Assembly (NCBI GenBank): GCA_030765065.1
Contig: CM060978.1
Span: 218,011,498-218,075,497 of the forward strand
Direction of reading: 5' to 3'
DNA length: 64,000 nt
From: Deroplatys truncata
Taxonomy: Eukaryota > Arthropoda > Insecta > Mantodea > Mantidae
Part shown: positions 1,430 to 60,638 of the stretch, piece by piece
Numbering within the stretch: position 1 is the stretch's first letter
How the letters are laid out: every line of letters starts with the position of its first letter
Translations under genes and position numbers: made by a program
Notes under the pieces: model-generated
Database searches by the model: none
The model's input: the letters and a program-made list of their open reading frames with translations, nothing else
What the model was told of the DNA's origin: nothing

Positions 1430-2302
1430 TGACGCAGTAATTTGTGTCACAAAATGTAAATGTCAGAGTGATTGTAGTGTGAATATGCATTGTTGTGTGA
1501 CATTGATTTGAGATGTTTGTTGATTGTAATCATTGTTGAGAAGTGGGTTTATACGGCCTTACTGAAACTGACAATAATAGCGTGCAATAATGTAGCGAGG
1601 GGGTGAGCTGTTTATCATTATTAGAGACGAGCAAATGACGTCAGAGTGGCGTGTTTTTCTTAGAATTTGCGGGAACATTTTTCCTAGAGCATATGTTTTC
1701 GTTATTTTCATTGGATATAAATATAGACGCTAATGTTGGCGCGTTTTATTAACCAATAGCAGCTCGGTTATAATCTTTAGGCATATTGGGGCGAGGAAGT
1801 ATAAATCCAGTGTCAGGGTCAAGTTTCACGTAGTCCAACAGAAGCATTCGCGTATAATACATCGATGAGTTCATGGAGTATGCGTCGCAAGCAGTTCATC
1901 AAGGTTACGCGTAGCAAATTTATGACAAATCTCTCGTGTCGTAAAGTTAATTACATAAAAAGTTGAAGTACGCGAATTAATAATGGGCAGTAAAGAAGTT
2001 ATTATAGAAGTGTCAAGATTAATAGGTGAAAGTGAATAATGTGTTACGACAATAAAAGTGTGAAACAAATTCTTTTATCAGTGTTATCTTTGGATAAAAA
2101 CTCTTTCCGTTTACACACCCTGTACAAGAGAAGTGCTTGACCGAGAAATCATAGCTAGCCTGAGGGCAGTGAACCCAAAATTAAATACAATAACAGGCGC
2201 TCAGCAAAAGATAACACGAAGTGACCGCGATAAATTGTGTTTTATACGTGCGGCAAATAAACAGTAGCATTTTCAATTACAAACATTAATACTGCCACTG
2301 CA
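1430..2302 (+). mobile_element. Family C LTR-like unit (C1), nested in family A
   Basis: This 873-bp unit begins TGACGCAGTAATTTG and ends CCACTGCA, flanked by ATTC (1426-1429) and ACTC (2303-2306). Intact family A copies carry ACTC here, so the left copy has one substitution. It has promoter-like U3 features, a TATA motif near 1800, AATAAAAG at 2051-2058 and a tRNA-Lys primer-binding-site-like relic near 2240-2270. This layout is that of a solo LTR. There is no gag or pol sequence. Confidence 0.85.
1636..1806 (+). promoter_or_regulatory. U3 promoter block of C1
   Basis: The sequence shows a palindromic CRE/ATF site TGACGTCA (1636-1643), an E2F-like TTGGCGCG (1736-1743), a CCAAT box (1753-1757) and TATAAAT (1800-1806), in order. 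The corresponding region of C3 repeats this layout with TGACGTCA at 40490-40497. Promoter activity is inferred. Confidence 0.55.
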
Positions 2303-3102
2303 ACTCACATGACTTTCCCTACTCTTGTACAAACTATTTCTACAAATGCTTATTCCCCATCTACTTCATGTTAATCGAGATATCGAGATGTTAATCTTAT
2401 TACTAATTTTCTTGTAGGTGCAAGGGGAATATGGTAGACTTTAAGCTATAGTCAAATATATTAAGAGTTGGTTGCTATGTGGAGTATTCCATTCTCTTTG
2501 CATTACCAGGACAAAAACTGAATAACGAATTCGAGAAAAACTATAAGTATTGGAAAAATTAAGGGAATAACAAGCAATATCTCGAAAATGGTTCACTCAA
2601 CAAAAAAAAAAGTATATGACATAAATTCTGTATTTTAACGCGATCTACATTTTTTGCGTAGTAAAAGTTTGTCTATCTCTTATGGTTTACCAGTTATGCA
2701 AAAATCGTTCACAATGAAGAATACCTTTGGAGACATTCCCAGAAAATTCGAGATAAACATTTCATTTGTCATGAAAAGATCTTAAGCATATGGTATTTTA
2801 ATCAAAATCGTTAGAGCCATTTTTGAGAAAATTACAATTTTCGAAAAATGTTGCATGTAAAGGGTAATCTGGGGTGGGGGATTTTCTTGAAAACCTTTGT
2901 GTCGCATCTCTGGAAGATACTGAACCTAAATACCAAGTTTGGTGTTTATCCGACTGTTCGTTTCTGAGTTATGCTGTTCACAGACCCACACACACACAGA
3001 CTCACACACGGACATGTTTCCAAAAATGCTTTTTTTGAATTCAGGGGGTCTCAAAACATGTATTTATGGTGAAATCTCGGAATCGAATACAATCTCTATT
3101 AC

Positions 3103-5385: not shown

Positions 5386-6180
5386 ATTTTTTTAAAACTT
5401 CAAACTCAAAACGACATTGTTGTTTTTCATTATGCGACGCTTTCTGATTGCAAACCTCTGCATTTGTACCGGGATGTTAAGTATTTAAATCAGAGAAGAT
5501 TGAAGTTTCTATAAGTTAAAAGCTCAATGTGTATTAATAGGTAAGTTTTATGAACGTAAATTAACTAATTTATGTAGCTCGAAAGTTTGTCCTAAGATGA
5601 TCATCAGTGCTTTGGCCAGCATGCCAACGGAGCTATGTTTGATCTTCCATAAAGTCAAGATATTTTTCTGTCGTAGAAAAACTTCAAGAATGGGTGAATG
5701 TTTACGTTATTTCACTTCCATACTGAGGCAGACAATGCAAAACCGCAGCAAAGTCAGCTTGTGATAGACGTAGTTGCCATCCACGGTCCAGCCTAAGATA
5801 ATCGGACCTTTGTTCCTGCAAAAAAGCGATGGTCGTTATCAGCAATATAGGTAACTTGAAAACAAGTGAATCGAGTGCTACATAATATGAATTAGACATT
5901 TCTTAAGTTTGGCTTTATGGCATATTATTTTATAAGAAATGACATTATTATTGTTGTTATTAGAATTTAAAATAAAATAATAGAAGCAAATCCCATCAGT
6001 ATATTATACTTTCTGAGTTTTATATTGCTATAACCTTTTCAATCAGTACTATGATAGTATAGTATTTTTATTGTGCTAAGAGTTTTACAAATTTGATTGT
6101 CTACTGCATTTTGACCCTGGTCACGTATTCAGTAGACAATCACTACAGTTTATTTACATTTTACAATTTCTTGTCACTAA
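5386..6180. other. No recognised feature
   Basis: AT-rich sequence. I see no gene, tRNA or repeat that recurs elsewhere in the window. Confidence 0.4.
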
Positions 6181-9557: not shown

Positions 9558-9593
<36 letters not shown>

Positions 9594-11121
9594 CTAGAGT
9601 AGTAGTCGCAGTAGTAGAGGTATTAGTTGTAGTAGTAGTAGAGTAGTAGTAGCAGTATTAGTAGTAGTAGTAGTAGTAGTTGTAGTAGCAATGGTACTAA
9701 TAGAGTAGTAGTAGTTGCAGTAGCAGTAGTTGCAGTAACAGTAGTAGTAGTAGTAGAATAGTAATTGCAGTAGCAGTAGTAGTAGTAGAGTAGTAGTAGC
9801 AGTAGTAGTAGTAGTATTAGAGTAGTAGTAGAGAGTAGTAGTAGAGTAGTAGTAGTAGAGAGTAGTAGTAGAGTAGTGGTGGCAGCAGTAGTAGTAGTAG
9901 TAGCAGTAGTTGCAGTAGAGTAGTAATTGCAGTAGCAGTAGTAGTAGTAGAGTAGTAGTAGCAGTAGTAGAGTAGTAGTAGGGAGTAGTAGTAGAGTAGT
10001 GGTAGCAGCAGCAGTAGTAGTAGAGTAGTAGAAGTAGAGAGTAGTAGTAGAGTAGTGGTAGCAACAGCAGTAGTAGTAGTAGAGTAGTAGTTGCAGTAGC
10101 AGTAGTAGTATTAGAGTAGTAGTAGCAGTAGTAGTAGTAGAGCAGTGGTAGAGAGTAGTAGTAGAGCAGATTGCAGTAGCAGTAGTAGTAGTAGTAGAGT
10201 AGTAGTAGCAGTAGTAGTAGTAGAGTAGTAGTAGAGAGTAGTAGTAGAGTAGTGGTAGCAGCATCAGTAGTAGTAGAGTAGTAGTAGTTGCAGTAGCAGT
10301 AGTAGTAGTAGAGTAGTAGCAGTAGTAGTAGATTGTAGTAGTAGAGTAGTAGTAGAAAGTAGTAGTAGAGTAGTGGTAGCAGCAGCAGTAGTAGTAGTAG
10401 TAGAGTAGTAGTAGTTGCAGTAGCAGTAGTTGCAGTAACAGTAGTAGTAGTAGAGTAGTAATTGCAGTAGCAGTAGTAGTAGAGTAGTAGTAGCAGTAGT
10501 AGTAGAGTAGTAGTAGAGATTAGTAGTAGAGTAGTGGTAGCAGCAGCAGTAGTAGAGTAGTAGTAGAGAGTAGTAGTAGAGTAGTGGTAGCAGCAGCAGT
10601 AGTAGTAGTAGAGTAGTAGTAGTTGCAGTAGCAGTAGTTGCAGTAACAGTTGTAGTAGTAGAGCAGTAATTGCAGTAGCAGTAGTAGTAGAGTAGTAGTA
10701 GCAGTAGTAGTAGAGAGTAGTAGTAGAGTAGTGGTAGCAGCAGTAGTAGTAGTAGAGTAGTAGTAGAGAGTAGTAGTAGAGTAGTGGTAGCAGCAGCAGT
10801 AGTAGTAGAGTAGTAGTAGCAGTAGAGTAGTAGTAGTAGTAGCAATAGTAGTAATAGAGGAGTAGAAGTTGCAGTTGCAGTAGTAGTAGTAGTAGTAGCA
10901 GCAGTAGTAGTAGAGTAGCAGTAGTTGTAGTAGCAATAGTAGTAGTAGTAGTAGTAGTAGTAGAGTAGTAGTAGCAGTAGTAGTAGTAGAGTAATAGTAT
11001 CAATAGTAGTAGCAGTAGTAGTAGTAGTAGTAGTAGTAGCAATAGTAGTAGTAGCAGCAGTAGTAGTTGTAGAGCATAGTATCAATAGTAGTAGTAGTAG
11101 TAGTAGTAGTAGTAGCAGCAA

Positions 11122-11166
<45 letters not shown>

Positions 11167-11188
11167 TAGTAGTATAAGTAGCAGCAGC

Positions 11189-11220
<32 letters not shown>

Positions 11221-11296
11221 TAGTAGTAGTAGTAGTAGAAGTAGTAGTAGCAGCAGCAGTAGTAGTAGTAGTAGTGGTAGTAGTAGTAGTAGAGTA
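9558..11296. repeat. TAG-trinucleotide array with higher-order structure (about 1.74 kb)
   Basis: This is a near-continuous (TAG)n array with recurring interruptions: TTGCAGTAGCAG, AGAGTAGTAG and GTGGTAGCAGCAGCAG. The GTGGTAGCA variant recurs near 9876, 10001, 10056, 10251, 10371, 10532, 10582, 10730 and 10782, so blocks rather than single triplets were duplicated. The last 250 bp are purer, with TGGTAG variants. Long minus-strand frames (up to 482 codons of Leu/Tyr/Thr) are artefacts of the array. Confidence 0.97.
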
Positions 11297-16207: not shown

Positions 16208-17237
16208 GGAAGTTGTTTTGTAGTGTATTTTGACTGTTGGGGAGCTCATTTGAAGTTCTTTTTTTAGAATTATTATTACCACGCTTTGGGAGCCAATTTG
16301 AAGTACGTTGTTTATTTTAGGTGTTGTTATTTGCCCCAAATTTTGGGAGCCAATTTGAAGAAGTTTTGTTGCTGCTACTTATGGTAAAAAAGTTTCCGGT
16401 AGCCTTCGCCCCAAATGTACTTTCCGGTGGCCTTTGCCCCCCAAAATGTTTAAAAAGTATTAACTTTGTAATTTTAACTCTTTCTTTAAATATTATATAT
16501 TTATTTTTGCGTCGGCTGCGTCACTATTTATATTTTTTTAGAGACATAAATGTCTTAACAGGGAGTGGTGCGACTGAAGAATGTAGGCTTACACAGATTA
16601 TAATTTGTACTTCATTCCATTTATTAATTCTTTAAACGATTAAAATAACACTTCACTAATATAGAGAGCTGTGAGATTCTTTTATTAAATACTTGCACTT
16701 TTTAACACGTAAACTATTTTCGTCTCACACTGAATACGTATTAAACTTCTCGAGGACGCGTTTCGCGTCTGATTAGTAACACTGTCTGCTAGCAACTGAC
16801 TTGATTTCTACCGCCTAAATTTGTAAATTTCTGTATTTCAAGTCTCTGATTGGCTATTCCTACTCCAATAGAATACTTTTATTTAATTTAAGCTTTTATT
16901 ATTTGTTAATTGGCTATTTTATAAACTGTCTCAAAATTTACATTATAGTTGCTCCAATAATGACTAGTAGCATTATTAAACCTTCTTACTCATAATTGCC
17001 TCAAGGTTACCTCATTGTTAGCAAATTTTGACCTATTTCTCACAGCTCCTACATTATTAAATTATGTAATACATTCACATAACGTTATTACACATATATA
17101 CAATAATATAAACATATACAATGACTGTAATATACACTTTTTATATCTTTTTACATACACATAAGGTGGGCTGTTATTGAGTTTATATATTATATAATTA
17201 GACTGAAATCATTTAAGTGTTAAAAAATACTGCCTCA
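16208..17237 (-). mobile_element. Family B LTR-like unit (B1)
   Basis: This minus-strand unit of 1030 bp ends on the plus strand with CTGCCTCA (17237), the complement of the family start TGAGGCAG. AATA flanks both sides (16204-16207, 17238-17241). The 3' terminal A is mutated, so the plus strand starts GG rather than TG. In element orientation it has CCAAT boxes, TATAAAATAGCCAAT, two AATAAAAG signals, two 28-bp repeats and three primer-binding-site-like modules (16236-16362). There is no internal retrotransposon ORF. Confidence 0.85.
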
Positions 17238-18370: not shown

Positions 18371-19421
18371 TGATGCAGTAATTTGTATCACAAATTATTT
18401 AAATGTAAAGAGTGATTATAGTATGAATATGCATTTTTGTGTGACATTAATTTGAGATATTTGTTTATTGAAATTATTGTTGAGAAGTAAGTTTTTAATG
18501 CCTTACTGAAACTGACAATAATAGCGTGCAATAATGCAGCGAGGGGGTGAGCTGTTTATCATTATTGGAAACGAGGAAGTTACGTAATGTTGGCGCGTTT
18601 TCCTTTAGAATCTTCTGGAACATTTCCCTAGAGCATATGTATTCATAATTTTCATTGGATATAAAAATAGACGCTAATGTTGGCGCGTTTTATTAGCCAA
18701 TTGCAGCTCAGTTATAATCTTTAGGCATATCGGGGTGTATGAGTATAAAAGAGCTAGGTTAGAGGTAGAGCCCGTCAGTTCATCAAAATTCTTTGTACAT
18801 TACACGTCGCCTTCAGTCCGTCAGTTCGTCGAAAATATTTGTATGATACACGTTGCCTTCAGTCCAGCAGAAATATTACACGTCGGCTATCGATTCGCAA
18901 GTTACGCGTATAAGAGTTATGAAAAATCTCAAGTATGGTAAAGTTAATTATACAAAAGGTTGAAGTACGTGAATTAAAAGTGATCAGTAAAAAGTTGTTA
19001 TAACAGTTTCAGTTTGGGTGTCTAGATCAATGTGTAAATGTGATAGTGAAAGTGTTCGACAATAAAAGTATAAAAGAAATTCTTTCATCAGTGTTATCTT
19101 TGGATAAAAGATTCCTTTCCGTTTACACAACCTGTATAAAGAGAAGTGCTCGACCCAAAAGGATAATAGCTAGCCGGAGGACAGTAAACCAAAATTAAGT
19201 AAAATAACAGTAGCATTCTTTCAAACAAACACTAATACTACCGCAAATTGCTAACACCAGATGGAGCTACAAACCTAACAAAGAATTACGTCACAAAATG
19301 GCATCACCACGTGAAGTAAACACACATACACAAACATTATAAGTAAAACCGTCGCAAATTGGCTACCACAACGTGGGGCTACACAATAATGTTAAATATA
19401 AATAACATTAAAACCACTTCA
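18371..19421 (+). mobile_element. Family C LTR-like unit (C2)
   Basis: This 1051-bp unit begins TGATGCAGTAATTTG and ends ACCACTTCA, flanked by perfect GTTT duplications (18367-18370, 19422-19425). It has two TTGGCGCG motifs, an ATTAGCCAAT box, TATAAAAG near 18742 and AATAAAAG at 19061-19068. Its long 3' part has repeated primer-binding-site-like modules near 19250, 19300 and 19355, the last reading AATTGGCTACCACAACGTGG then GGC. It is longer than the other C units mainly because of these modules. Confidence 0.9.
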
Positions 19422-21417: not shown

Positions 21418-22010
21418 TACGAGGTACGTCCAGAAAGTAAGTTCCGTTTGGTAATAAAATTAAATTGTGTACAGATACAGAAAACTTATTTATTGCACAA
21501 AATTCTACAACTCTTAAACTACTTTTCCACATAACTGCCGAAATTTTGCAGACATTTGTCATAGCGTGGCACAAGTTTTTGTATACCTTCTTCATAGAAG
21601 TTTGCCGCCTGTGTCTTCAACCAGTTGGAAACATTTTCTTTCAGCTCTTCTTCATTGTTGAAGTGTTGACCACCAAGGAAAGACTTGAGATGTAAGAACA
21701 GATGAAAGTCGCTAGGAGCGAGGTCAGGGATGTATGGAGGATGGTCAAACACGTCCCAGCCAAATCCCTGTAGGAGGTTTTGCGTCACATTTGCAGTGTG
21801 TGGTCGTACGTTGTCGTGAAGAAAAACAACACCTTTTGACAGCAATCCTCGGCGCTTATTCTGTATTGCGCGGCGCAATTTCCTAAGTGTCTCGCAATAA
21901 ACATCTGCTTTGATTGTGTGACCACGCGGTAAGAAATCAATGAGTAAGATGCCTTTCCAGTCCCAGAACACTGTGCGTATTTCAGAAGTCGAAGATAAAA
22001 GAAAGTGCAA
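21418..22010 (-). pseudogene. 5'-truncated mariner transposon with transposase C-terminal half
   Basis: A mariner-type inverted terminal repeat (ACGAGGTACGTCCAGAAAGT) follows a TA at 21418-21419. The minus-strand frame 21519-22010 is the C-terminal half of a mariner transposase. TVFWDWKG and LRRAIQNKRRG are followed by HDNVRPHTA (second catalytic Asp) and PPYIPDLAPSDFHLF (third catalytic Asp), with a C terminus ending YVEK. The helix-turn-helix region and first catalytic Asp are missing, and homology stops near 21990. No 5' terminal repeat was found, so it is immobile. Confidence 0.93.
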
Positions 22011-22069
22011 TAATTTAAAAACGTAATATAACAGGGGTATGGGAACCTTCGTTTTATCACATCCAACAA

Positions 22070-22720
22070 TTTCTCATGGATCCTTGCTCCTCCTTATACG
22101 TCTCTTGTATACGTTAGTAATAAATCACACATATGACCTTACTTGCAAACCCTGACATTTCCACTTTGAGCAAACTTTCAGGAAATGAAAAAAAAATTGT
22201 TTAATGCATACGCGATTACTAAAGTACTATTTAGAAGGCAAACTAATGTTAAAACCACTTGGATATAGACTACAGTTTTGCAATGTATTAGTTTATTCCA
22301 AGACAAAGAATTTTTTGTCTAGTAAAATGCATTGTTAATTTGGAAATGTAGGCATTTGCATTTTATCAGTAGTAGAATAGTAAGTTGTGGTAGGATCTAA
22401 CGAAATAATTGAAGTAAATATACCATCAATGTTTTTGATATACTTTAATTGCTAGTAATTAATCCCCACATGTGACAACTGTATACACTTATGTAAATAT
22501 TTCACATTTAGCAGTATATTTTGATGTCCTGTGAAACATTTTCATTAATGTTTGTAACGATAATTTGATGTATGTTTACTTGCGTTATAATTACTACTAT
22601 GCAAAATTGATTTACACTTAAACTATCACTTTATAATTATAGAAACAAAAATAGTTGTTGTGTTATTAAGGTTTGCCTTTAAAGTCTGTGATATTAAACA
22701 TAATTATGCGAGTTGCTTAA
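22070..22720. other. No recognised gene
   Basis: AT-rich DNA upstream of the LINE tail. Confidence 0.4.
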
Positions 22721-24595: not shown

Positions 24596-24660
24596 ACGTA
24601 AATATATGTCTTGAGACCGCCTTAATCCAAAAAAAGCATTTTTGGAAACATGTCCGGTGT

Positions 24661-24705
<45 letters not shown>

Positions 24706-25401
24706 TGTGTGTGTGTGTGTCTGTGGACAGTATAACTCAGAAACGAACAGTCAAATAAACACCAAACTTGGTATTTAGGTACAGTATCTTCCTGAGATGT
24801 GACACGAAGGTTTTCAAGAAAATCCTCCACCCCAGATTACCTTTTAAATGGAACATTTTTCGAAAATTTTAATTTTCTCAAAAATGCCTCAACAGTTTTG
24901 ATTAAAATATCATATGTTTAAGATATTTTCATGTCAAATGAAATGTATATCTCGAATTTTCTGGGAATGTCTCCAAAAGTGTTCTTCATTGTAAACGACT
25001 TTTGCATAACTGGTAAACCATAAGAGATAGACAAAATGTTACTACACAAAAATGTAGATCGCATTAAAATACACAATTTATGTCATATACGTTTTTGTTG
25101 TTGAGTGAACCATTTTCGAGATATTGCTTGTTATTGCCTTAAATTTTCCAATACTTATACGTTTACTCAAATTCGTTATTCATTTTTTTTGGCCTGGTAA
25201 TACAAAGAGAATGGAATACTCCACATAGTAACCAGCTCTTAAACGCTTAAAGCCTAGCAATTCCCCTTGCATCTACAAGAAAATTAGCAATAAGATTAAC
25301 ATCTCGATATCTTGATTAACATGAAGCATATGGAGAATAACCGTTTGTAAAAATAGTTTGTACAAGGGTAGAGAAAGTCATGTGAGTGTAACACATCAGA
25401 T
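24596..25401 (-). mobile_element. Family A repeat (copy e) with expanded GT tract
   Basis: Near-complete minus-strand copy lacking the 3' stem-loop. The internal CA/GT microsatellite is expanded to about 65 bp (24657-24722), the longest in the window. It ends with the conserved 5' terminus GAGTGTAACACATCAGA next to an A/T run. Confidence 0.9.
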
Positions 25402-25589
25402 TTGTTTTTTAGTTTACTCCAAGAATGTGCCTTTGTACATAGAAATCAACACGTAATACTTTGTGGCAACAGATCAAGGTTTCTTAGTTGAAAAGTACTT
25501 ACTCATGTGTCTTCGGGGGTGTAGCTTCACAATGTTTAAGGAAGGTAAAATATATATTAGCCCTTACGTACTTTAACCCGTTAGGTCAT

Positions 25590-30597: not shown

Positions 30598-30960
30598 TTA
30601 ACGAAAATAGTCTTCAAATTTATGGTTGCATTGTTTGATGATCGTTTCTCTGGTTTCATCCATAATGTTTACTGTATAGGGACTGCACAAATTCTTCAAC
30701 AAGGCAAGATGATTACTACTTTTAATAAAATCATCATAACACTCTTTAACAGAGCCTTGAAATAGGTGGATACACAACCACGTTACTTTTACACAATATA
30801 TTGTGGGTTTCTTTAGAGAACCTCTACTTAAGGAATCAATCAGTCTTGCTGCACCTTCAAATTCATACTTTAAAGTGTCATTTAAAATAAATAACTCAAC
30901 GCATTTGGGACATATTATACCATTTGCTACCTTGATAGCAGCATAACCTGTAATGTAAAA
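30598..30960 (-). pseudogene. P-element/THAP-like transposase C-terminal fragment
   Basis: The minus-strand frame reads LFYITGYAAIKV then ICPKCVELF and continues about 120 codons. A GY...KV followed by CxxC is typical of the C-terminal part of P-element/THAP9-type transposases. Its upstream part is cut by a family A fragment immediately to the right (from 30962), although a TTTTACATTACAG|G acceptor-like sequence at the junction could also mark an exon start. Not intact. Confidence 0.5.
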
Positions 30961-30961
30961 C

Positions 30962-31089
30962 AATGTTTCCAAAAATGCTTTTTTGGATTCAGGGGTCTCA
31001 AAACATATATTTCCGGTGAAATCTCGGTATCGAATTTTTCGGTGGAGTACAATACTTCCCCTACTTACTATACGTAGTAGAGAAAGTAA
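30962..31089 (+). mobile_element. Family A 3' end (copy g)
   Basis: Only the last 130 bp of family A are present, from TGTTTCCAAAAATGC through GGTGAAATCTCGGTAT to the intact stem-loop ACTATACGTAGTAG and AGAAAGTAAA. A family A-like 5' end in the other orientation follows at about 31140-31165 (GTCATGTGAATGTATCACATC). Confidence 0.85.
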
Positions 31090-31540
31090 ATGAGCTTAGT
31101 AAGAATAATTTGTATACCTACTAATAAACGAAAGAAGTTGAAGAAAGTCATGTGAATGTATCACATCAATTTTGTAATTACTCACCGCTGTTCCCATCTG
31201 CAAGTGCTAAGAGAGGCGCACTTACACACGAATCGCTTAGCTAATAGGGAGAAGGCAGCGTGGAAGAACATGTCTTCGTGAGAAAGAGTCGACACAGCTA
31301 GAGATTAAATTGCATCAAAATAACAAAGTAAGTCTGCATCGAGTTTCTTCATATTAAAACGTAGTTATGCTAATTGTTACTGGTAACCATTTATATAATG
31401 TAACTGCGAACGTGATCATCATGAATACAAATAACTTAATTGTTACTGGTAACCGTTACATGTAACCGTTAACGCACTCTAACTGCGAAAGTTATAACCG
31501 TTACTCGTAAATAACTGTTTGTTACATTACTATCACGCAT

Positions 31541-34125: not shown

Positions 34126-35138
34126 TGAGGCAGTATTTTAATACTTGAATAGTTTCAATTGAATTATATAATATGTAAATTAAATAACAGCCCGCCTTGA
34201 AGCAATATGTATGAAATAAGTTGTAAAAATGTATGTAACAGTCATTGCATATGCTTATTTTTATTCTAAACATGTTCAATAATGTTATGTGAATACATTA
34301 TGTAATTAATAATGCAAGAGCTGTGAGCATAATAAGTTTAACGTTGCTAACATTGAGGTAACAATGAGGTAACCCTGAGGCAATAATGAGTTTGAGAGTT
34401 TAAATACTACTAGTCATGATTAGAGCAACAATAATGTAAATTCTGTGACAGTTTCAAAATAGCCAATCAACAGCCAGAAAAAGCTTTAATAAAATGCAGG
34501 TATTCTATTGGACTAGGATTAGCAATTCAGAGACTTGAAATACAAAGATTTTAATGTTTATACGGTTGATATCTGTTCAGTTGCCTGTAGACCTTGGTAG
34601 TGACCGGAAGGACCGTGTTCTCTAAAGAAATATTACGTATTCGTGTGAATCGTAAATTAAGTATACGCGATAACAAAGTGCAAGTGTTAAAATAAAGAAT
34701 CTCACAGCTCTTAATATCAGTGTAGTGTTATTTAATTTGTGCCAAGGATTAATAAAATGAAGTGAATTTAAACTTAAAATCTGTGTAAGCCTACATTCTT
34801 GTCGCACCACGCCCTGTCTAAGAGATACGTGATTCTAAAACAATACTGAAGCAGCCGAGGCAAACATAAACATAAATACTACCTATAGAAGCAGTTTAAT
34901 AACAAAGTTAATATAATATTTTAAAACTTGGAGCGTAACAAAAAAAAATACATCTTCAAAAATCAGCTTCTCATACGTAGTAGCATATTACGTAACAAAC
35001 AATCTTCTTCAAATTAACGTTCATACATGGAGCTGATTAAATAAATAAACTAAAACACCCACTGCTTCAAGTTGGCTTCCCAAGCGTGTGGCTAACAACA
35101 ACAATAAACTACAACGGTTGAAGAATAATACTACTTCA
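34126..35138 (+). mobile_element. Family B LTR-like unit (B2)
   Basis: This 1013-bp unit begins TGAGGCAGTATTTTAATAC and ends ATACTACTTCA, flanked by perfect TAAG duplications (34122-34125, 35139-35142). It carries AGCCAATCA, AATAAAG and AATAAAATG signals and, near its 3' end, three diverged primer-binding-site-like modules led by ATCTTCA, TTCTTCA and TGCTTCA. The best reads CTTCAAGTTGGCTTCCCAAG. Confidence 0.92.
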
Positions 35139-36558: not shown

Positions 36559-37536
36559 TGAAGATGTAGTTTGTTGTATTGTTATTTGCCCCAAATTTTT
36601 GGAGCCAATTTGAAGAAGTTTTCTTGCTGCTACGTATGGTAAAAAGTTTCCGGTAGCCTTCGCCCCAAATGTACTTTCCGGTGGCCTTTGCCCCAAATGT
36701 ACTTTCCGGTGGCCTTTGCCCCCCCAAAAGGTTTAAAAAATATTAACTTTGTAATTTTTAACTGTTTCTTTACATATTATAAATTTATGATTGCCTCGGC
36801 TGTGTCAGTATTTATTTTTTTAGAGACATGAATGTCTTAACAAGGCATGGTGCGGCTGAAGAATGTAGGCTTACACAGATTATAATTTCTACTTCACTCC
36901 TTTTATTAATGCTTGACACGATTTAAATAACACTTCACTGATACAGAGAGCTGTGAGATTCTTTTATTAATTACTTGCACTTTTTAACACGTAAACTATT
37001 TTCGTCTCACATTGAATACGTATTAAACTTCTCGAGGATGCGTTTCGCGTCTGATTATTAACACTGTCTGCTAGCAACTGATTTGATTTCTACCGCCTAA
37101 ATTTGTAAATTTCTGTATTTCAAGTCTCTGATTGGCTATTCCTACTCCAATGGAATACTTTCATTTAACTTAAGCTTCTCTGTGGTTCTTGATTGGCTAT
37201 TTTATAAACTGCCTCAAAAATTACATTATTGTTTCCAAGAATGACTAGTAGCATTATTAAACCTTCTTACTCATTATTGCTTCAAGGTTACCTTATTGTT
37301 ACCTCATTGTTAGCAACTTTTGACCTATTTCTCACAGCTCCTACATTATTAAATTATGTAATACATTCACATAACATTATTACACATGTATACAATAATA
37401 TAAACATATACAATGACTGTAATGTACACTTTTTATGTATTGTTACATACACATATTGCTTTAAGGCGGGCTGTTATTGTATTTGTATATCATATAATTA
37501 GACTGAAATCATTTAAGTGTTAAAAATACTGCCTCA
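36559..37536 (-). mobile_element. Family B LTR-like unit (B4)
   Basis: This 978-bp minus-strand unit begins on the plus strand TGAAGATGTAG and ends CTGCCTCA, flanked by perfect ATAC duplications (36555-36558, 37537-37540). It has three tandem 28-bp repeats starting TTTCCGG at 36647, 36675 and 36703, against two in B1, but only one primer-binding-site-like module (36593-36618). The CCAAT boxes, AATAAAAG signals and ACGCGTTTCGCGTC-like palindrome are shared with B1. Confidence 0.92.
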
Positions 37537-38129: not shown

Positions 38130-38481
38130 TATAATGACATTTAGAAAATCATAATATTCGAAAAACTTCTATGTAAAAGGTAGTTTGTGATGTGCGGATC
38201 TGTTTTGAAAATCTTCGTGCCACATTTTTGGAAGATACTGGACTTAAATACAAGTTTGGGTGTTATCCGGTGTTTCGTTTTTGAGTTACGTTGTTCATAG
38301 ATACACAGACACGCAAACACATGAATATTTTTCTACTTGAATACTTTTCTACATGTATACCTTTAAGGATTCAGGGGACGTCAAAATATGTATTTAAGGT
38401 GAAATCTCGGTATTCTATTTTTTGGCTGGAATACAATACTTCCTCTACTTAGTGTTAAGTGCGTAGCAGAGAAAGTAAAAA
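38130..38481 (+). mobile_element. Family A 3' half (copy h)
   Basis: A diverged 3' half ends with the stem-loop relic and GAGAAAGTAAAA at 38480, directly next to the 5' end of copy i. Confidence 0.85.
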
Positions 38482-39307
38482 TTTGATGTGTTACACTCAC
38501 ATGACTTTCTCTACTCTTGTATAAACTATTTTTCCAAACGCTTATTTCCATATGCTTCATGTTAATCGAGATGTTAATCTTATTGGTAATTTTCTTGTAG
38601 ATGCAAGGGGAATTGGTAGGCTTTAAGCGATAGTCAAATATTTTATTTATGTGGAGTATTCCATTCTCTTTGCATTACCAGGACAAAAACAAGAATAACG
38701 AATTCCCATTTGAGAACAAGCATAAGTATTGGAAAATTAGAGAGAATAACAAGCAATATCTAGAAAATGGTGCACTCAACAAAAAAATATATATAACATA
38801 AATTGTGTATTTTAACGCGATCTACATTTTTTGTGTAGTAAAATTTTGTGTATCGCTTATGGTTTACCAGTTATGCAAAAGTCGTTCACAATGAAGAATA
38901 CTTTTGGAGACATTCCCAGAAAATTCGAGATATACAATTCATTTGCCATAGAAATGTCTTAAACTTATGGTGTTTTATTCAAAATCGTTGGAAGCATTTT
39001 TGAAAAAATTAAAATTTTCGAAAAATGTTCCATGTAAAGGGTAGTCTGGGATGGGGGTATTTTCTTGAAAACCTTCGTGTCGCATCTCTGGAAGTTACTG
39101 AACCTAGATACCAAGTTTGGTGTTTATCCGACTGTTCGTTTCTGAGTTATGCTGATCACAGACACACACACGGACATGTTTTCAAAAATACTTTATTTGT
39201 ATTCAGGAGGCCTCAAAACATGTATTGCCGGTGAAATCTGGGTTTCGAATTTTTGAGTGCAATACAACACTTCCCCTACTTACTATACGTAGTAGAGAAA
39301 GTAAAAA
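38482..39307 (+). mobile_element. Near-full-length family A repeat (copy i)
   Basis: Complete copy of 826 bp from TTTGATGTGTTACACTCACA to ACGTAGTAGAGAAAGTAAAA. It shows every family feature: inverted ACTTTCTCTACT (38503) and AGTAGAGAAAGT (39291), a short CA tract (39160-39172) and the terminal stem-loop. It abuts copy h with only the A-run between. ORF 39025-39234 is the repeat-encoded frame. Confidence 0.93.
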
Positions 39308-39795
39308 TGGCTAAAAGCAACAGTGCCTACTTTAATTTACAGTGACGTACATGCTACCGTATCCCGTTCTATTCGGCGTGGTGGTAAGAAGATTTAATGC
39401 AGTTTTGTGTATGTGTGCGTGCCTCAGAGGAAGTGAGACGTTGTGGAACAAGAAATGGAGGAAGGCGTCGCGATGGAGCACTCTGTCAACACGCGCTCCT
39501 GATAGTTTCAAAATTAAATTACCTCACCAGCGCTAACACCACCGCAAAGTACTGGTTCAGCTTCTCGAGCATACCGAGAGAACGGAAATTGTACTGAACG
39601 CTCATCGCTGCAGTCTCACGATTGACAGGTAAAGCTTATAGCGAGAGTAAACAACTTTAATGTTGCAATGTGCCTCCTGTAATTTTTCGAACCTCCTTCG
39701 ATATTTGTAAATAGTCTCCTATAAAGGAAGATATACTTTTTATTATAAAATATAAATCCCGGTCGTTCCATTTCAGATTATCTAAATGTTAATGT
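39308..39795. other. GC-richer island, possible exon
   Basis: Between two mobile elements lies a stretch (about 39350-39640) that is clearly GC-richer than its surroundings. It contains two overlapping plus-strand frames (39342-39536 and 39397-39597) and a good donor GACAG|GTAAAG near 39630. No domain is recognisable, so a 5' UTR exon or an unknown element is possible. Confidence 0.25.
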
Positions 39796-41492
39796 TGAGG
39801 CAGTATTTTTAACACGGTAGTATTTTTAACACCTAAATGATTTCAGTCTAATTATATAATATAAAGTATAATAACAGACCGCCTTAAAGCAATATGTGTA
39901 TGTAACAATATATAAATAGTGTATATTACAGTCATTGCATCTGTTTATATTATTGTGTACATGTATAATAATATTATGTGAATGTATTACGTAATTTTAT
40001 AATGTAGGAGGTGTGAGAATAGAGGCTGAAAGTTGCTAACAATGCGGTAACAATGAGATAACCTTGAGGCAATAATGAATTAGATAGTTTAATAATGCTA
40101 CTAGTTATTCTTGGAACAATAATGTAATGTTTAAAACAGTTTATAAATAGCCAATCAATAACCAGAAAATATGAAAGTTAAATAAAAGTATTCTATTGGA
40201 GTAGTATCAGCCAATCAGAGACTTGAAATAGATGAAATTTGCAAATTTAAACGGTGAACGTCAGTCGCTAGAAGGCAACGTTGTGGCAGTAATTTGTATC
40301 ACAATAATGTAAATGCCAGAGTGATTGTAGTGTAAATAAGCATTATTGTATGACATTGATTTGAGATGTTTGTTAATTATATGCATTGTTAGGAAATAAG
40401 TTTACACGGCCTCACTGAAACTGACAATAATAGCGGGCAACAATGTAGCGAGGGGGTGAGTTGTTTATCAATTATTAGCGACAAGCAAATGACGTCAGAT
40501 TGGCGCGTTTTTCTTAGAAATGGCGGGAATTTCTTCCCTAGAGCATATGTTTTCGTAATTTTTGATTGGGTATAAAAATAGACGCTAATGTTGGCGCGTT
40601 TTATTAATCAATAGCAGCTCGGTTATAATCTTTAGGCATATTAGGGTGTGGGAGTATAAAAAGCTAAAGCCAGAGGCAAGTATCGCCCAGTTCAACAAAA
40701 TCATCCACGCGTTACACGTCGCTGAGTCCAACAGAATCATTCAGAAGTTAAAGGTCGCTTAGTTCATCAGAATCGTTCGCGAGTTACACGTCGCAATTCT
40801 ACAGAATCTCTCGCGTCTTAAAGTTTGTTATAAATGTGAAACACGCGAATTAATAATGTGCAGTAAATAAGTGATTATAGTGATATTAGAAAATATAACA
40901 GTTTCAGTCTGGCGGGTATCAAGAGTCAATATGTGAACTTAATTAATTGTGACGGTAATAAAAGTGTAAAAACAAATTCTTTTATCAATGTTATCTTTGA
41001 GTAACAAATCCTTTCCGTTTACACACCCTGTTCAAGAGATGTGCTTGAGCGAGAAACAATAGCTAGCAGGAGGACAATGAACCCAACATTCAAAGTAGTA
41101 AAACAATAACAGGCGCTCAGAAATAAGATAACACGAAGTGACCGCGATAAATTGGCTTACATACGTGGTGCAGATAAACATGAAGCATCTTCCAACTACA
41201 AAAAAATATACCACTTCAACGTACCTGAGCAGTTCGTTCTCTCGGTACGTATTCAGTGTGAGATATAAAATTCATTACTGCGAGAATATTATAAAGTTGA
41301 CGTGTTTAAAAGTGCAATTAATGAATAATCTCACAGCTCTCTATATCAGTGAAGTCCTATTTAATTGTGTGAAGGGTTAATAAAAGGAGTGAAGTAAAAA
41401 TTATAGTTTGTATAAGCCTACATTCCTTAGGCGCATCACCCCCTGTTAAAGATACATGTTTCTACAAATTAATACTGACGCAGCCGAGGCAA

Positions 41493-41530
<38 letters not shown>

Positions 41531-41751
41531 TATTTAAAGAAAAATTAAAATACAAAGCTATTCCTAAACGTTGGGGCGAAGGCAATCAGAAAGTGAACGT
41601 TGGGGCGAAGGCCACCGGAAACTTTGTTCCTAAACGTGGGGCAGTTACTTCATCAAGTTTGAATCCCCAACAGTGGAACTATAATACAATACAACCTTCA
41701 AATTGGCACTTAAAAGTGGTGCTAAAAATAACGTAAATACATTCTATCTCA
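39796..41751 (+). mobile_element. Family B LTR-like unit (B3), split by a family C insertion
   Basis: It begins TGAGGCAGTATTTTTAACAC and ends CATTCTATCTCA, flanked by perfect ATGT duplications (39792-39795, 41752-41755). Removing the nested C3 and one copy of its duplication leaves about 1015 bp, the usual family length. The right part has TTAATAAAAGGAGTG, an (AT)n tract (41503-41526), two 28-bp-type repeats and two primer-binding-site-like modules (41630-41740). Confidence 0.93.
40282..41218 (+). mobile_element. Family C LTR-like unit (C3), nested in B3
   Basis: This 937-bp unit begins TGTGGCAGTAATTTG and ends ACCACTTCA, flanked by perfect ACGT duplications (40278-40281, 41219-41222). It contains TGACGTCA (40490-40497), GGCGCGTTTT twice, TATAAAAAG near 40653, AATAAAAG at 40957-40964, and a primer-binding-site-like module reading AATTGGCTTACATACGTGGT near 41150. 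Confidence 0.95.
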
Positions 41752-44173: not shown

Positions 44174-45195
44174 TGAGGCAGTATTTTTAACGCTTAAATG
44201 ATTTCAGTCAAATTATATAATATGTAAATTCAATAACAGCCCGCCTTGAAGCAATATGTGTATGTAATAATTTGTAAAATGTATGTAACAGTCATTGCAT
44301 ATGCTTATACTATTGTATACATGTTCAATAATGTTATATGTATGTATTACGTAATTTAATAATGTAGGAGCTGTGAGAAATAGTCAAAAGTTGCTAACAA
44401 ATAGCTAACAATGAGGTAACATTGAGTCAATAATGAGTAAGAAAGTTTAGCAGTACTACTTGTGATTCTTGGAGTAACAATAATGTAATTTTAGTGACAG
44501 TTTATAAAAATAGCCAATCAACAACCAGAAGAAGCTTTAGTTAAATACATGTATTCTATTGGAGTAGGATTAGCCAATCAGAGACTTGAAATAACGGTTG
44601 AAATCTATTCAGTTGCCTGCAGACAGAGTTACTAACCAGACTCGAGATGTGTCCTCGAGAAATTAATTACGTATTCGTGTGAGACGAAAATAGTATAAGT
44701 GTTAAAAAGTGCAAGTATTAAATAAAAGAATCTCACAGCTCTCTATATCAGTAAAGTACTATTTAATTTGTGTCAAGGATTAATAAAAAGGAGTGAATTA
44801 AAACTTAAAATCTGTGTAAGCCTACATTCTTGTCGCATCACACCCTGCCAAGACTTTCATGTCTCTAACAATAATACTGATGCAGCCGAGGCAAACATAA
44901 ATATATAATATCTAAAGAAACAGTTAAATTACAAAGCTATTATTTTTAAACTTGGGGCAAAGGCCATCTGAAAATACATTTGGGGCGAAGGTTACTATAC
45001 GTGTGGTTGCAACTACTTCAAGTGTTCGGCTCCTCAACAGATGAAATATATTACAGCATCTACAAACTGACTTTCATACGTAGCACCAACTAACTACTTT
45101 AAATTGAACGCCCAAAGCGTGGTGCAAACTCCTACAACAAAATAACTACTTCAAATTGGCGTCCATATGTGGAGCTAAATAAATAAACAACTCCA
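44174..45195 (+). mobile_element. Family B LTR-like unit (B5)
   Basis: This 1022-bp unit begins TGAGGCAGTATTTTTAACGC and ends AACAACTCCA, flanked by perfect CATT duplications (44170-44173, 45196-45199). It shows AGCCAATCA twice, AATAAAAG, two 28-bp-type repeats (GGGGCAAAGG, GGGGCGAAGG), and four primer-binding-site-like modules at about 45012, 45058, 45106 and 45148. The last reads ACTTCAAATTGGCGTCCATA. Confidence 0.93.
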
Positions 45196-48422: not shown

Positions 48423-49210
48423 TGAGACAATATTTTATATCATAACATGCTGTGAATGCCAGAGTGATTATAGTGTAAATTAATATTATTGTATGTACAT
48501 GATTATAGATATTCGTTAGCCATAAGGATTGTTGGGAAATAAGTTTGCACGGCCTAACAGAAACTGACAATAGAAGTGGGTAACAATAAACCGAGGGGGT
48601 GAGTTGTTTGTCACTAAGAAGAGAAAGCCGAAATTGACGTTAGGGCAACGTGCCCTTTTTAGAAATGGAGGGAATATCTTCCCTAGAGCATATATGTTAG
48701 TAGTAGTGATTGGCTGACCAAAACAGACGCTAAAGTTGGCGCAATTTGGTAACCAATAGGAGCTATATTATAATGTTTAGGCAATTCGAGATGAAGGAGT
48801 ATATATTCTCAAACCATAAGGAAGTATCGTACAGTTATGAAGAATCTCTCACGAGGTGCACGTCGCAGAGTTAGTCACAAAAATGTAAAGTACGCGAAGT
48901 AATTAATGCGCGGCAACTAAAACGATTGTAGTTACATTTGGAAATATTACAGTATCAGTCAGGCGTGTATAAAGATTAAATATGTCAATTATTAATTAAG
49001 CGTGACGGCAATAAAAGTGTAGATTAAGATTTTTTTATCGATGTTATCTTTTAGTAACAACTCCTTTCCGTTTACACACCCTGCTTAGAGACACTTGCTC
49101 GACTGAGCTATAATAGCTAGCCGGAGGACAAGGAACCCAAATTTAAAAAGAATAATTAAACAATAAGCGCCCAAAAATAAGATAGTACAAGTCTTCTGAG
49201 AACTACGACA
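48423..49210 (+). mobile_element. Family C LTR-like unit (C4)
   Basis: This 788-bp diverged unit begins TGAGACAATATTTTATATC and ends AACTACGACA, flanked by perfect ATAG duplications (48419-48422, 49211-49214). It keeps GAGGGGGTGAG, TTGACGTTAG in the CRE position, GTTGGCGCAA, AACCAATAGG, TATATATTC near 48800, AATAAAAG at 49010-49017 and CTCCTTTCCGTTTACACACC. The 3' module array is absent or eroded, which explains its short length. Confidence 0.9.
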
Positions 49211-52455: not shown

Positions 52456-53602
52456 CACTATGTGATCAAAAGTATCCCGACACCCCCACAAACGTACGTT
52501 TTTCATCTTAAGTGCATTCTGCTGCCACCTACTGCCTGGTACTCATTATCCACGACCTCAGTAGTGATTAGACGTCGTGAAACAGCAGAATGGGACGATC
52601 CGTGGAACTCACGGACTTCGAACGTGGTCAGGTGTTTGGGTGTCACTTGTGTCAGAAGTCTGTACGCGAGATTTCCACACTCCTAAACATCCCTAGATCA
52701 ACTGTTTCTGATGTGATAGTGAAGTGAAAACGTGAAGGGACATGTACAGGCCGACCTCGTCTGTTGACTGACAAAGTTCACCGACATTTGAAGAGGGTCA
52801 TATAGAGTAATAGGTAGACATCTATGCAGACCATCACACAGGAATTCCAAGCTGCATCGGGAACCCCTCCAAGTACTATGACGCCTCACTTGGTGTAAGG
52901 AGCGTCAAAATTACACGATTGAACAGTGGCAAAACATTGCGTGGAGTCACAAATCACGGTATACAATGTGGCAATCCGATGGCAGGGTGTGGGTATGGCG
53001 AATGCCCGGTGAACGTCATCTGCCAGCGTGTGTAGTACCAACAGTGAAATTCGGAAGTGGTGGTGTTATGATGTGGTCGTGTTTTTCCTGGAGGGGGCTT
53101 GCACTCCTTGTTGTTTTGCGTGGCACGATCACAGCGCAGACCTACACTGATATTTTAAGCACCTTCTTGCTTCCCACTGTTGAAGAGCAATTCGGGGATG
53201 GCGATTGCATCTTTCAACACGATCGAGCACCTGCTCATACTGCACGGGCTGTGTCGGAGTGGTTACACGACAATAACATCCCTGTAATGGACTGGCCTGC
53301 ACAGAGTCCTGACTTGAATCCTATAGAACACCTTTGTGATGTTTTGGAATGCCGACTTCGTGCCAGACCTCACCGACCTACATCGATACCCCTCCTCAGT
53401 TCCGCACTCCGTGAAGAATGGCTATCATTCCCCAAGAAACCTTCCAGCACCTGATTGAAAGTATGCCTGCGAGAGTGAACGGTGACATCAAGGCTAAGGG
53501 TGGGCCAACACCATATTGACTTCTAAGCATTACCGATTGAGAGCGCCACGAACTTGTACGTCATTTTCAGCCAGGTGTCCGGATACTTTTGATCACGTAG
53601 TG
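52456..53602 (+). mobile_element. Tc1-like transposon, 1147 bp
   Basis: The termini are inverted repeats: CACTATGTGATCAAAAGTAT then CCCGACACC at the left, and the complement of GGTGTCCGGATACTTTTGAT then CACGTAGTG at the right. A TA follows the right end, and TT (a likely mutated TA) precedes the left. It encloses a single degraded transposase. Length and ends are typical of Tc1-type elements. A second copy starts at 63850. Confidence 0.92.
52589..53520 (+). pseudogene. Tc1-family transposase, inactivated
   Basis: The frame starts MGRSVELTDFERGQV with an N-terminal helix-turn-helix (VREISTLLNIPRSTVSDVIV). Stops follow (TGA after VIVK, TAG after KRVI). A deletion of about 20 residues precedes WCKERQNYTIEQWQN, before the catalytic region. 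The first catalytic Asp is replaced by His (SHKSRY for the family SDESRF). FQHDRAPAHTA (second Asp) and WPAQSPDLNPIEHL (third acidic Glu) are intact. A one-base frameshift near 53437 precedes the C-terminal ETFQHLIESMP...KGGPTPY. Confidence 0.93.
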
Positions 53603-53604
53603 TA

Positions 53605-54047
53605 GATGTTACTGTTAAGTTGCTTACGTAAAGTTCTCATTAATATCAAATTGAACATGTATTTTGTGTCACAGCATGAATCCTCCGCATGTAAATACTC
53701 TTGCTGTAAGATTGCAGCGAAAATGACTACTATTTTACATCATTGTTTCATTTATATAACTTTTAAACTTTTTATCAATAACAAGACTGAACATATTGTT
53801 TTTTCTTACATCATGATGCTTTGTTTTCTATTCTTTCTTAATTAGTTTATTGTTAAATATTAGAGCATGTTTTAAAATTTTTACAAAGCAATGCGAGGCT
53901 ACACTTGTCTTTCCTTGTTCATCAACACTTTTGTATACAACGTTCCTTCTGTACGATAGGAACAATGGCTGACCCCCTGCCAACATTTATCCGAGAGTGC
54001 AATCTGTTAATTTCGTTACTGATCCATGGCACTCTGTATCTCTTTGC
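53605..54047. other. No recognised gene
   Basis: AT-rich spacer between the Tc1 element and B6. Confidence 0.4.
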
Positions 54048-54051
54048 ACAG

Positions 54052-55009
54052 TGTAGTAGGTGGTTTGTTACGTTATTTGCTTCACGCTTTGAGTGTCAAT
54101 TTGAAGTAGTTTGTATTGAAGGAGTTGTATTATATTTCAACTGTTGGGGAGCGAAACTTGAAGTAGTTGCAACCGCACGTATGGTACCCAATAGCCTTCG
54201 TTAAAAAAAATATAAACTTTGTAATTTGACTGTTTCTTTAAGAATTAAATATTTGTGTTTGCCTCGGCTGCGTCAGTATTATTGTTAGAGACACGTTTCT
54301 CTTAGCAGGGTTGTGGTGTGACTAAGGATGTAGGCTTACACAGATTATAATTTTACTTCACTCCTTTTATTAATGCTTGATACGATTTAAATAACACTTC
54401 ACTGATATAGAGAGCTGTGAGATTCTTTAATTAATTACTTGCACTTATTAACACGTAAACTATTTTCGTCTCACACGAATACGTTTTATACTTCTCGAGG
54501 ACGTGTCTCGCGCCTGGTTAAGAACACTGTTTGCAGGCATTTGAATTTCTTTCAACCGCCTAAACTTGTAAATTTCTGTATTTCAAATCTCTGATTGGGT
54601 ATTCCTAATCCAATAGAATACCTTCATTTAACTAAAGTTTTTTCTGATTGTTGATTGGCTATTTTTATAAAATGTCACTAAAATCACATTATTACTTCCA
54701 AGAATCACAAGTAGTACTGTTAAACTCTCAAACTCATTATTGCCTCAAGGTTGCCTCATTGTTAGCAACTTTTAACTTATTATTCTCACAGCCCCTACAT
54801 TATTAAATTACGTAATACATTCACATAACATTATTAAACAGTATACAATAGTATACAATAATATAAACAAATACAATGACTGTAATATACACTTTTTATA
54901 TATTGTTAAATACACATATTGCTTTAAGGCGGGCTGTTACTGAATATATATATATATATATATATTATATTTAGACTGAAATCATTTAAGTATCAAAAAT
55001 ACTGCCTCA
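54052..55009 (-). mobile_element. Family B LTR-like unit (B6)
   Basis: This minus-strand unit of about 958 bp ends on the plus strand with CTGCCTCA. Its other end fits TGTAGTAGG (54052), matching the family terminus CTACTTCA with one change. The flanks ACAG (54048-54051) and ATGG (55010-55013) differ at two sites, so the duplication is not proven. It has two primer-binding-site-like modules (54084-54150), a shared CTCGAGGACGTGTCTCGCGC palindrome region, and a (TA)n tract at 54948-54964. Confidence 0.85.
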
Positions 55010-59455: not shown

Positions 59456-60260
59456 ATTTCTCTACTCTTGTACAAACTATTTTTACAAACGCTTATTCTC
59501 CATATGCTTCATGTTAATCGAGATGTTAATCTTACTGCTAATTTTCTTGTAGATGCAGGGGGAATTGGTAGGCTTTAAGCGATAGTCAAATATTTTAAGA
59601 GCTGGTTGCTATGTGCAGTATTCCATTCTCTTTCCATGTCCAGGACATAAAAAAATGAATAACGAATACCCATTTGAGAAAAAGTATAACTATTGGAAAA
59701 TGTAAAGGAATAACAAGCAATATCTCGAATATGGTTCACTCAACAAAAAAAATGTATTTGACATAAATTGTATATTTTAACGTGACCTACATTGTTTGTG
59801 TAGTAAAATTTTGTCTATCCCTTATGGTTTACCAGTTTACAATGAAGAATACTTTTGGAGACATTCCCAGAAAATTCGAGATACATATTTCATTTGTCAT
59901 GAAAATATCTTAAACATATGATATTTTAATTAAACTCGTTAGAGCCATTTTTGAGAAAATTAAAATTTACGAAAAATGTTCCATGTAAAGGGTAATCTGG
60001 GGTGGGGGGATTTTCTTGTAAACCTTCGTGTCGCATCTCTGGAACATACTGAACCTAAATACCACGTTTGGTGTTTATCCGACTGTTCGTTTCTGAGTTA
60101 TGCTGTTCACAGACACACACACGGACATGTTTCCAAAAATGCTTTTTTTTTGGATTCAGGGTGTCTCAAAACATGTATTTCCGGTGAAATCTCGGTATCG
60201 AATTTTTGGGCGGAATACAATACTTCCCCTACTTACTATACGTAGTAGAGAAAGTAAAAA
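59456..60260 (+). mobile_element. Near-full-length family A repeat (copy n)
   Basis: It lacks only the outermost 5' bases, starting at TTTCTCTACTCTTGTACAAA, and ends ACGTAGTAGAGAAAGTAAAA. A 15-bp deletion removes GTTATGCAAAAGTC near 59833. The short CA tract is ACACACACACGG (60112). ORF 59976-60245 is the family frame. Confidence 0.93.
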
Positions 60261-60638
60261 TTCCTACTTACGCTTAGTCTGGAAACGTTTACTTGTGGGT
60301 GTGTGAGTGTTGGGTTGGCTATTGTCGGGGGTATCATTACAGTTATGAATTCATGTTCAAAACTAGGAATGGCATATGTCAGTTTTTCCTTTTTAGCGTT
60401 AATGAGTTATTCAAGCCGCATTGCTTTTGTCCTTACGTCGTGTCATAGCTGTGAAGCCCTCTTCATCTGCAATGAATGTTGTATAGTCTGACAACTCAAA
60501 AGAGTTAGTGCTACTTTTTGTTAGACCTGCTTCAAAAACAAATTTTATTCCTTTCTCAGATTCTTTCAACAACAATATGAAACAAATATATCTTTAAATT
60601 AATTTTCTAAATTAATTTATTATTATCTTATACCTAAT
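60261..60638. other. No recognised gene
   Basis: AT-rich spacer. The 62-codon plus-strand frame 60303-60491 has two hydrophobic stretches and no recognisable domain. Confidence 0.3.

Follow-up and report, generated by a model that had tools for sequence, protein, structure and literature searches.

An LTR edge that appears to shift among tandem tRNA-Lys primer sites in retrotransposons of the mantis Deroplatys truncata

The site at which the tRNA primes determines where a long terminal repeat (LTR) ends; in ordinary LTR elements there is a single such site, and the end does not vary. The Ty3/gypsy elements primed by tRNA-Lys are the closest match to the elements considered here. In both, reverse transcriptase (RT) and RNase H precede integrase (as seen in one mantid element), the primer site lies behind an LTR ending in CA, and the target duplications are of 4 bp. 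However, ordinary Ty3/gypsy elements have a single site and a fixed end, whereas the mantid elements have an array of sites and an end that varies between relatives. Two primer-binding sites (PBSs) have been combined in retroviral vectors, for which Voronin and Pathak reportedly described frequent dual initiation in 2004, to judge from the title of their paper. As far as that title goes, dual initiation is also the key step of the floating-boundary model set out below. These vectors, on the other hand, are laboratory constructs; we know of no natural array of this type, and of no lasting change in LTR length associated with them.

Among natural elements, the Copia-like Cluster-149 of Anopheles gambiae has been described with two PBSs, one for a valine and one for a methionine tRNA. 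It has 168-base LTRs and groups with Copia with non-significant support; in the available part of its description neither a tandem array nor a moving LTR end is mentioned (PMC3212995). Helenus and Ajax are non-autonomous LTR retrotransposons which, like most of the elements studied here, are small. Animal Helenus elements make 4-bp duplications and have primer sites resembling those of Gypsy elements, tRNA-Lys among them. Their LTRs differ from those of the mantid in carrying tRNA-like or 5S-like sequence with no complementarity to the primer site, whereas the mantid LTRs carry the primer site itself, in tandem (PMC10886601). Among the papers listed by our literature searches (some of them broad, with few subscription papers and no preprints) we found no description of natural tandem primer sites that span an LTR end.

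The best reading of the units described below is that they are LTRs of Ty3/gypsy-like retrotransposons primed by the host tRNA-Lys(CUU), and that the modules near their ends are alternative or former primer sites. Where the repeat ends appears to depend on the choice of primer-site copy.

Primer-site-like modules in the window

The window, by which we mean the whole stretch of 64,000 nt that was analysed, comes from contig C4 of a genome of 4.29 Gb. Ten unit heads occur in it, six of family B, three of the related family C and one variant (table 1). Most of the units are solo LTRs flanked by 4-bp matches and measure 788–1051 bases where both ends could be placed (the nested C copy being excluded from its host). 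A full-length B or C copy was not found in the window. A TG start, a CA end and a short duplication of fixed length mark the window units as LTRs, and likewise the 12 full-length relatives described below. The earlier note had the units end in ACTTCA or a close variant, followed by the target duplication. Seven of the ten heads pair with an end in CA followed by the same four bases that precede the head. At the eighth (17237) the flank matches but the unit ends in TTCC, and two heads, 55009 and 1430, have no assigned end. Heads 39796 and 44174 each have two candidate ends of the CA-plus-flank form. The region 44995–45195 is the 3′ end of the family B unit that begins at 44174. Since CATT occurs twice here, after ..CTCCA (end 45195) and, 16 bases downstream, after ..TTTACA, we took CAACTCCA followed by CATT as the end on account of its likeness to the ACTTCA of other units.

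Do these units carry primer sites? At their 3′ ends lie degenerate tandem modules that resemble CA followed by AATTGGCGCCCAACGTGGGGC. We searched with a template of 17 fixed positions and 0–3 free extra central bases, and used 10 Markov sequences as the control. At up to four mismatches the window gave nine matches, all nine of them inside B or C units (17% of the window), against a control mean of 0.1 and a largest control value of 1. At five mismatches there were 19 matches, 13 inside units and six outside, with 6.1 expected in all; those outside were no more than chance would give. A looser pattern gave 26 matches, most of them outside units, against 11.6 expected and 20 in the largest shuffle. 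Tandem primer-site-like modules near the 3′ ends of B and C units, as the earlier note had described them, are thus real. The copies are degenerate, however, and units 48423 and 1430 have none at the threshold of the caller, although a weak copy in 1430 can be seen by eye. Unit 44174 has two further, weaker modules near 45015 and 45060, visible by eye only. In the window modules, again by eye, 7–8 bases separate GGC from CGTGG, where the tRNA complement has six. At 36647–36722, and in the tails of several B units, another tandem repeat (28 bases, GTACATTTGGGGCAAAGGCCACCGGAAA on the strand of the unit) lies just upstream of the modules.

Table 1. Family B and C units of the window and the modules reported within unit 44174.
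Feature	Position	Strand	4-base flank	Remarks
Family B solo LTR with the reported modules	44174..45195	+	CATT	Basis: head and flank match, alignment with five other B units
Degenerate primer-site module	45105..45125	+		4–5 mismatches, 2–3 extra central bases
Degenerate primer-site module	45156..45175	+		3 mismatches, 1 extra central base; LTR end about 20 bases later
Family B solo LTR	16208..17237	-	TATT	Ends in TTCC; two modules by caller, third by eye
Family B solo LTR	36559..37536	-	GTAT	Ends after first module
Family B solo LTR	34126..35138	+	TAAG	Modules at -125 (weak) and -67 from the end
Family B solo LTR	39796..41751	+	ATGT	Two candidate ends; interrupted by nested family C solo LTR
Family C solo LTR nested in B	40282..41218	+	ACGT	One module
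Family C solo LTR	18371..19421	+	GTTT	One clear module, two weaker by eye
Family C solo LTR	48423..49210	+	ATAG	Ends before any detectable module
Family B unit	54030..55009	-		Both modules weak (5 mismatches); neither 3′ end nor duplication assigned
Family C unit	1430..2304	+		Adjoins family A repeat; end not assigned

The units do not all stop at the same point. The B units 36559–37536 and 16208–17237, each with its own flanks, share 90% identity across the first 750 bases, and their ends differ: the former stops after module one, while the latter goes on with a second and a third. Of the C units, 48423 stops short of any detectable module, 40282 includes a single one, and 18371 includes a clear module and two weaker ones. 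From the different ends of the B pair and of the C units we conclude that the LTR boundary differs among related units of the window in steps of about one module.

The window has other repeats as well. A dispersed repeat of about 800 bases, family A, is present at 2303–3088, 4619–5396, 24597–25407, 38477–39309, 59457–60262 and elsewhere; one copy adjoins the family C unit 1430, and TTACATTC stands on both sides of the pair. A GTA/TAC trinucleotide array of 1.7 kb occupies 9558–11296. By eye, the reading frames 21519–22073, 52882–53454 and 30598–31095 resemble transposases of the mariner and Tc1 types and a P-element/THAP9-like fragment.

The tRNA match and LTR ends in full-length relatives

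Which tRNA would pair with the modules? The host gene L072 is called as tRNA-Lys(CTT) by ARAGORN and ends in CCCCACGTTGGGCG; with CCA added, the complement expected of the primer site is TGGCGCCCAACGTGGGGC. The exact 15-base core, CGCCCAACGTGGGGC, is complementary to this gene, in keeping with the attribution of the site to tRNA-Lys(CUU) in the earlier note. Counted on both strands, the core occurs at 5,795 places genome-wide, the tRNA-Lys genes on the opposite strand included, and its reversed control at none. The wider module pattern occurs at 25,306 places, against 0 for its control. Among about 100 listed places of the exact core, 11 groups have two or three exact sites on one strand, 57–134 bases apart. 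Eight loci with exact sites, of which L007 and L008 overlap, and a further twenty hold between one and seven modules each, and most of these modules are preceded by an LTR-end-like ..CA and then AA or TA. The module core, GCCCA..TGGGGC, is nearly palindromic.

The degenerate sites, in about 100 listed of the 25,306 matches, are mostly of a few recurring forms (CTCCCATACG, CTCCCAAACG, CACCCAGAACG); since so few forms recur, they look inherited rather than freshly decayed. The listed coordinates by themselves suggest that some full-length copies have no exact site at all, for example C1:14424117-14427431. Another tRNA-Lys gene was considered as the source of the extra one or two central bases and rejected, since the places listed for the tRNA pattern (about 100 of 152) are all without them. 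Among the matches listed, the tRNA-Lys pattern forms a run at C9:191136768-191180491, with spacings that are mostly multiples of about 144 bases; L072 is one member of this run. Viral contigs contained neither the exact site nor the B-unit motif, and phages no B unit, the host not being expected there.

To what class do the elements belong? Twelve full-length relatives with 4-bp target duplications were recovered, 11 of them from 21 locus pairs, the twelfth being L002/L003. All 12 were found through the exact 15-mer site, and the two LTRs of each are 97.6–100% identical. The order RT and RNase H, then integrase, with an RT close to that of Ty3, was found in one element, L002/L003, whose exact sites lie 7.4 kb apart. 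Its interior (L030) matches RVT_1 (3.7e-26), RT_RNaseH_2 (8.9e-21) and Integrase_H2C2 (6e-12), together with rve at 7.1e-7 and 29.9 bits, below the Pfam cut-off of 32.6. The best solved-structure matches of its RT are 4ol8 (RT/RNase H by name) and 7q5b, the Gag-Pol of Ty3-G (5e-32). The other full-length elements measure 2.7–3.5 kb from LTR end to LTR end and, by size alone, are probably non-autonomous. A purine-rich stretch like ttctagtggggcata precedes most 3′ LTRs. There are signs of tandem multimers with shared LTRs at L001/L029, where the period is about 3,409 bases, and at L005/L006/L032, where it is about 2,726 bases and the outer flanks are AGTT.

The window units belong to these element families, as judged from two likenesses: C 18371 is about 93% like L001 and L004 over 742–750 bases, and B 44174 is 83% like L023. 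The LTR of L002/L003 is 73–77% like three B units over 78–431 bases. No other full-length relative has a B-like head, and L002/L003 itself resembles B units in part.

Where do the LTRs of the full-length relatives end? The counts that follow cover the 11 elements in which the end was placed. The duplication admits two placements in L006 and four in L002/L003, one of them behind ..CTATTTCA. L010 stands outside the verified set, its downstream partner being 87% similar over 276 bases with no matching duplication, and L001 and eight other loci (given as L020-L026) have no usable downstream LTR. In all 11 elements the LTR stops two bases before a TTGG module. Modules lie on both sides of this boundary: eight of the 11 have between one and six inside the LTR (15 in total), and seven have one or two more in the leader behind it (nine in total). 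A looser module caller adds one more inside the LTR of L009. Three elements, L013, L017 and L028, with LTRs that are 99.9–100% identical, have no extra module in LTR or leader.

An exact primer site directly behind the LTR, complementary to the last 18 bases of the tRNA, as expected of priming by tRNA-Lys(CUU), was found in nine of the 11 elements of a sample chosen by the exact 15-mer, whereas an incidental element, described below, has a non-exact one. The site is exact in only one of the 15 modules inside LTRs and in three of the nine in leaders; between LTR-end and in-LTR modules the difference gives a Fisher P of 0.00016. As the sample was selected by the exact 15-mer, the fair test is within arrays. 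There, in the eight multi-module elements, the LTR end coincides with an exact site in six, against 2.7 expected (P 0.016). When the octamer preceding each of the 24 other modules in these eight elements is compared with the LTR end of its element, 5.4 of the 8 positions agree, against 1.95 for random sequence; CA stands in phase before 21 of the 24, against 7%. Non-exact sites mark the LTR ends of L011 and L014, the exact site of L014 being inside its LTR. The incidental element, one split by the insertion of L013, breaks the pattern: its LTR end precedes a non-exact site with one extra base, and its leader holds another site with two. Its 3′ LTR matches at 99% over 203 bases, and its duplication could not be checked.

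The checks that the earlier note had proposed thus turned out in its favour: a primer site does follow the LTR end in full-length relatives, a host tRNA-Lys gene fits it, and the number of modules varies between relatives, in window units and full-length elements alike. The central proposal of the earlier note, that an LTR end together with its primer site has repeatedly been taken into the LTR, is supported.

Shared spacers and a boundary that may float

How might modules be gained? Five pairs of modules have letter-identical spacers, and in three of the five a degenerate site upstream is paired with an exact one downstream. The identity is 38/38 in L004, 45/45 in L010 and 26/26 in L014, up to 45 bases being compared. 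Of the two copies in L004, the upstream one lies within the LTR and the downstream one forms the site at its end; the pair in L010, whose LTR end is outside the verified set, resembles it; in L014 both copies are inside the LTR. The other two pairs (modules 3 and 5 of L014; modules 0 and 4 of L065) have no exact site, and their sites are the same or one base apart. All 17 duplicate pairs comprise five that run from degenerate to exact, three from exact to degenerate, one with both exact and eight without an exact site, three of the 17 being wrong-strand reads of the palindromic site.

Might all this reflect chromosomal tandem duplication, by slippage or unequal crossing-over, of an AT-rich LTR and leader segment, with the LTR end merely falling somewhere in the array? 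The head-to-tail units with near-identical spacers, the two pairs whose sites agree to within one base and the whole-element multimers would all suit such an origin. Yet it does not lead one to expect that the LTR end is the start of a module in every one of the 11 elements. Nor does plain duplication produce three pairs that differ in the site, with the downstream one exact: it would copy the site too, and the difference is explained if the site was copied from the tRNA. The solo LTRs B 37536 and B 17237, moreover, are separate insertions with their own flanks, and they end at different module boundaries. We therefore think duplication in the chromosome an improbable source of the arrays.

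The same spacer can lie inside the LTR of one element and outside that of another. At the LTR end of L007 stands an exact module with spacer AGTTAAAG.., whose counterpart in L009 is degenerate and lies inside the LTR (spacers 56/60). The LTR of L009 in turn ends at an exact module with spacer TAACTATAAG.., whose counterpart in L006 is degenerate and again inside the LTR (60/60). We conclude that modules cross the LTR boundary. In four of six spacer comparisons the spacers are 100% identical over 38–60 bases, of which about 16 served to find them, against 90–93% for the LTR bodies; in the other two they are 88% and 93% identical against 83% and 91%. These values hint at an exchange of modules between lineages. 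In L002/L003, which is flanked by TACA and whose LTRs are 97.6% identical, the 3′ LTR has a 77-base tandem block beside the exact site, and the 5′ LTR is without it. The degenerate-to-exact pairs, the modules that cross the boundary and this block fit alternative priming combined with in-register or out-of-register second-strand transfer.

We consider it probable that the LTR boundary floats among tandem primer sites by means of alternative priming and out-of-register second-strand transfer, a mechanism read from end products in the genome, among which no reverse-transcription intermediate was seen. The 5′ region carries a tandem array of an LTR-end-like ..CA, then AA or TA, a primer site and an AT-rich spacer of about 25–110 bases. 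In any one copy the tRNA would prime at one module, and the module so primed would set U5 and the LTR end, placing its upstream neighbours inside the LTR and leaving those downstream in the leader. The new end should still be integrable, since most modules open with sequence that resembles an LTR end and finishes in CA. Modules would be gained when plus-strand strong-stop DNA, which ends in the exact site copied from the tRNA, anneals to a neighbouring minus-strand site, so that a spacer is duplicated and the junction carries an exact site; modules would be deleted if it annealed further downstream. We infer this order of events, the strand transfer itself and the use of degenerate sites as primers. 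If degenerate sites did prime, they should be overwritten within a few cycles by copying of the tRNA. Their persistence might mean frequent loss of the rewritten strand, a role as landing sites instead of primers, or restoration by exchange.

What if the array instead owes its maintenance to a role in the leader or U5, such as tRNA recruitment, RNA structure or transcription, the overlap with the LTR end being a by-product? The recurrence of a few degenerate forms among the matches listed, as if they were maintained, and the nearly palindromic core would agree with this. On the other hand, the number of modules inside the LTR ranges from 0 to 6 across the 11 elements, and L013, L017 and L028 do without any extra module. 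As a substitute for the floating boundary we regard such a function as quite unlikely, but the two are not exclusive.

At three further places of the tRNA pattern, tRNA-Lys-like stretches of about 31, about 45 and 76 bases lie, by eye, beside LTR-like ends: C4:85748310 (L069), C6:70246412 (L070) and C9:158659480 (L071). The last has its CCA encoded and is called tRNA-Met(CAT) by ARAGORN. We take the three for captured tRNA copies, as if the primer had been copied through and integrated. Since they look like tRNA copied past the usual 18 bases, overshoot of the LTR/primer-site boundary by reverse transcriptase may happen here, but we give very little credence to the earlier note's explanation that fixed overshoots made the LTR grow in one direction: overshoot would add tRNA sequence, yet the modules examined run into an AT-rich spacer ending in a fresh ..CA, and in seven of 11 elements the array continues into the leader beyond the LTR end. 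Read-through is not needed for LTR growth. Alternative-site priming with out-of-register transfer would account for growth, shrinkage and the exact sites at junctions, and the one-way, stepwise growth that had been envisaged is not borne out.

What a floating boundary would mean

The floating boundary may be part of something larger, which we put forward tentatively and with rather more doubt than belief. In a large radiation of Ty3/gypsy elements, a standing array of exact and bulged sites would replace the fixed boundary. In each round a site would be chosen and stamped by the tRNA and the LTR redrawn; modules would be exchanged between lineages at primer sites, and the array would be a record of use.

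LTR ends are treated as fixed, and both LTR dating and the definition of families rest on that. An LTR end that moves stepwise among relatives preserves, in nature, a record of the starting points of reverse transcription and of the landing points of second-strand transfer, events otherwise known, to our knowledge, from laboratory vectors. A floating boundary would explain how LTRs lengthen, and also why tools that place LTR ends and primer sites may err in such genomes.
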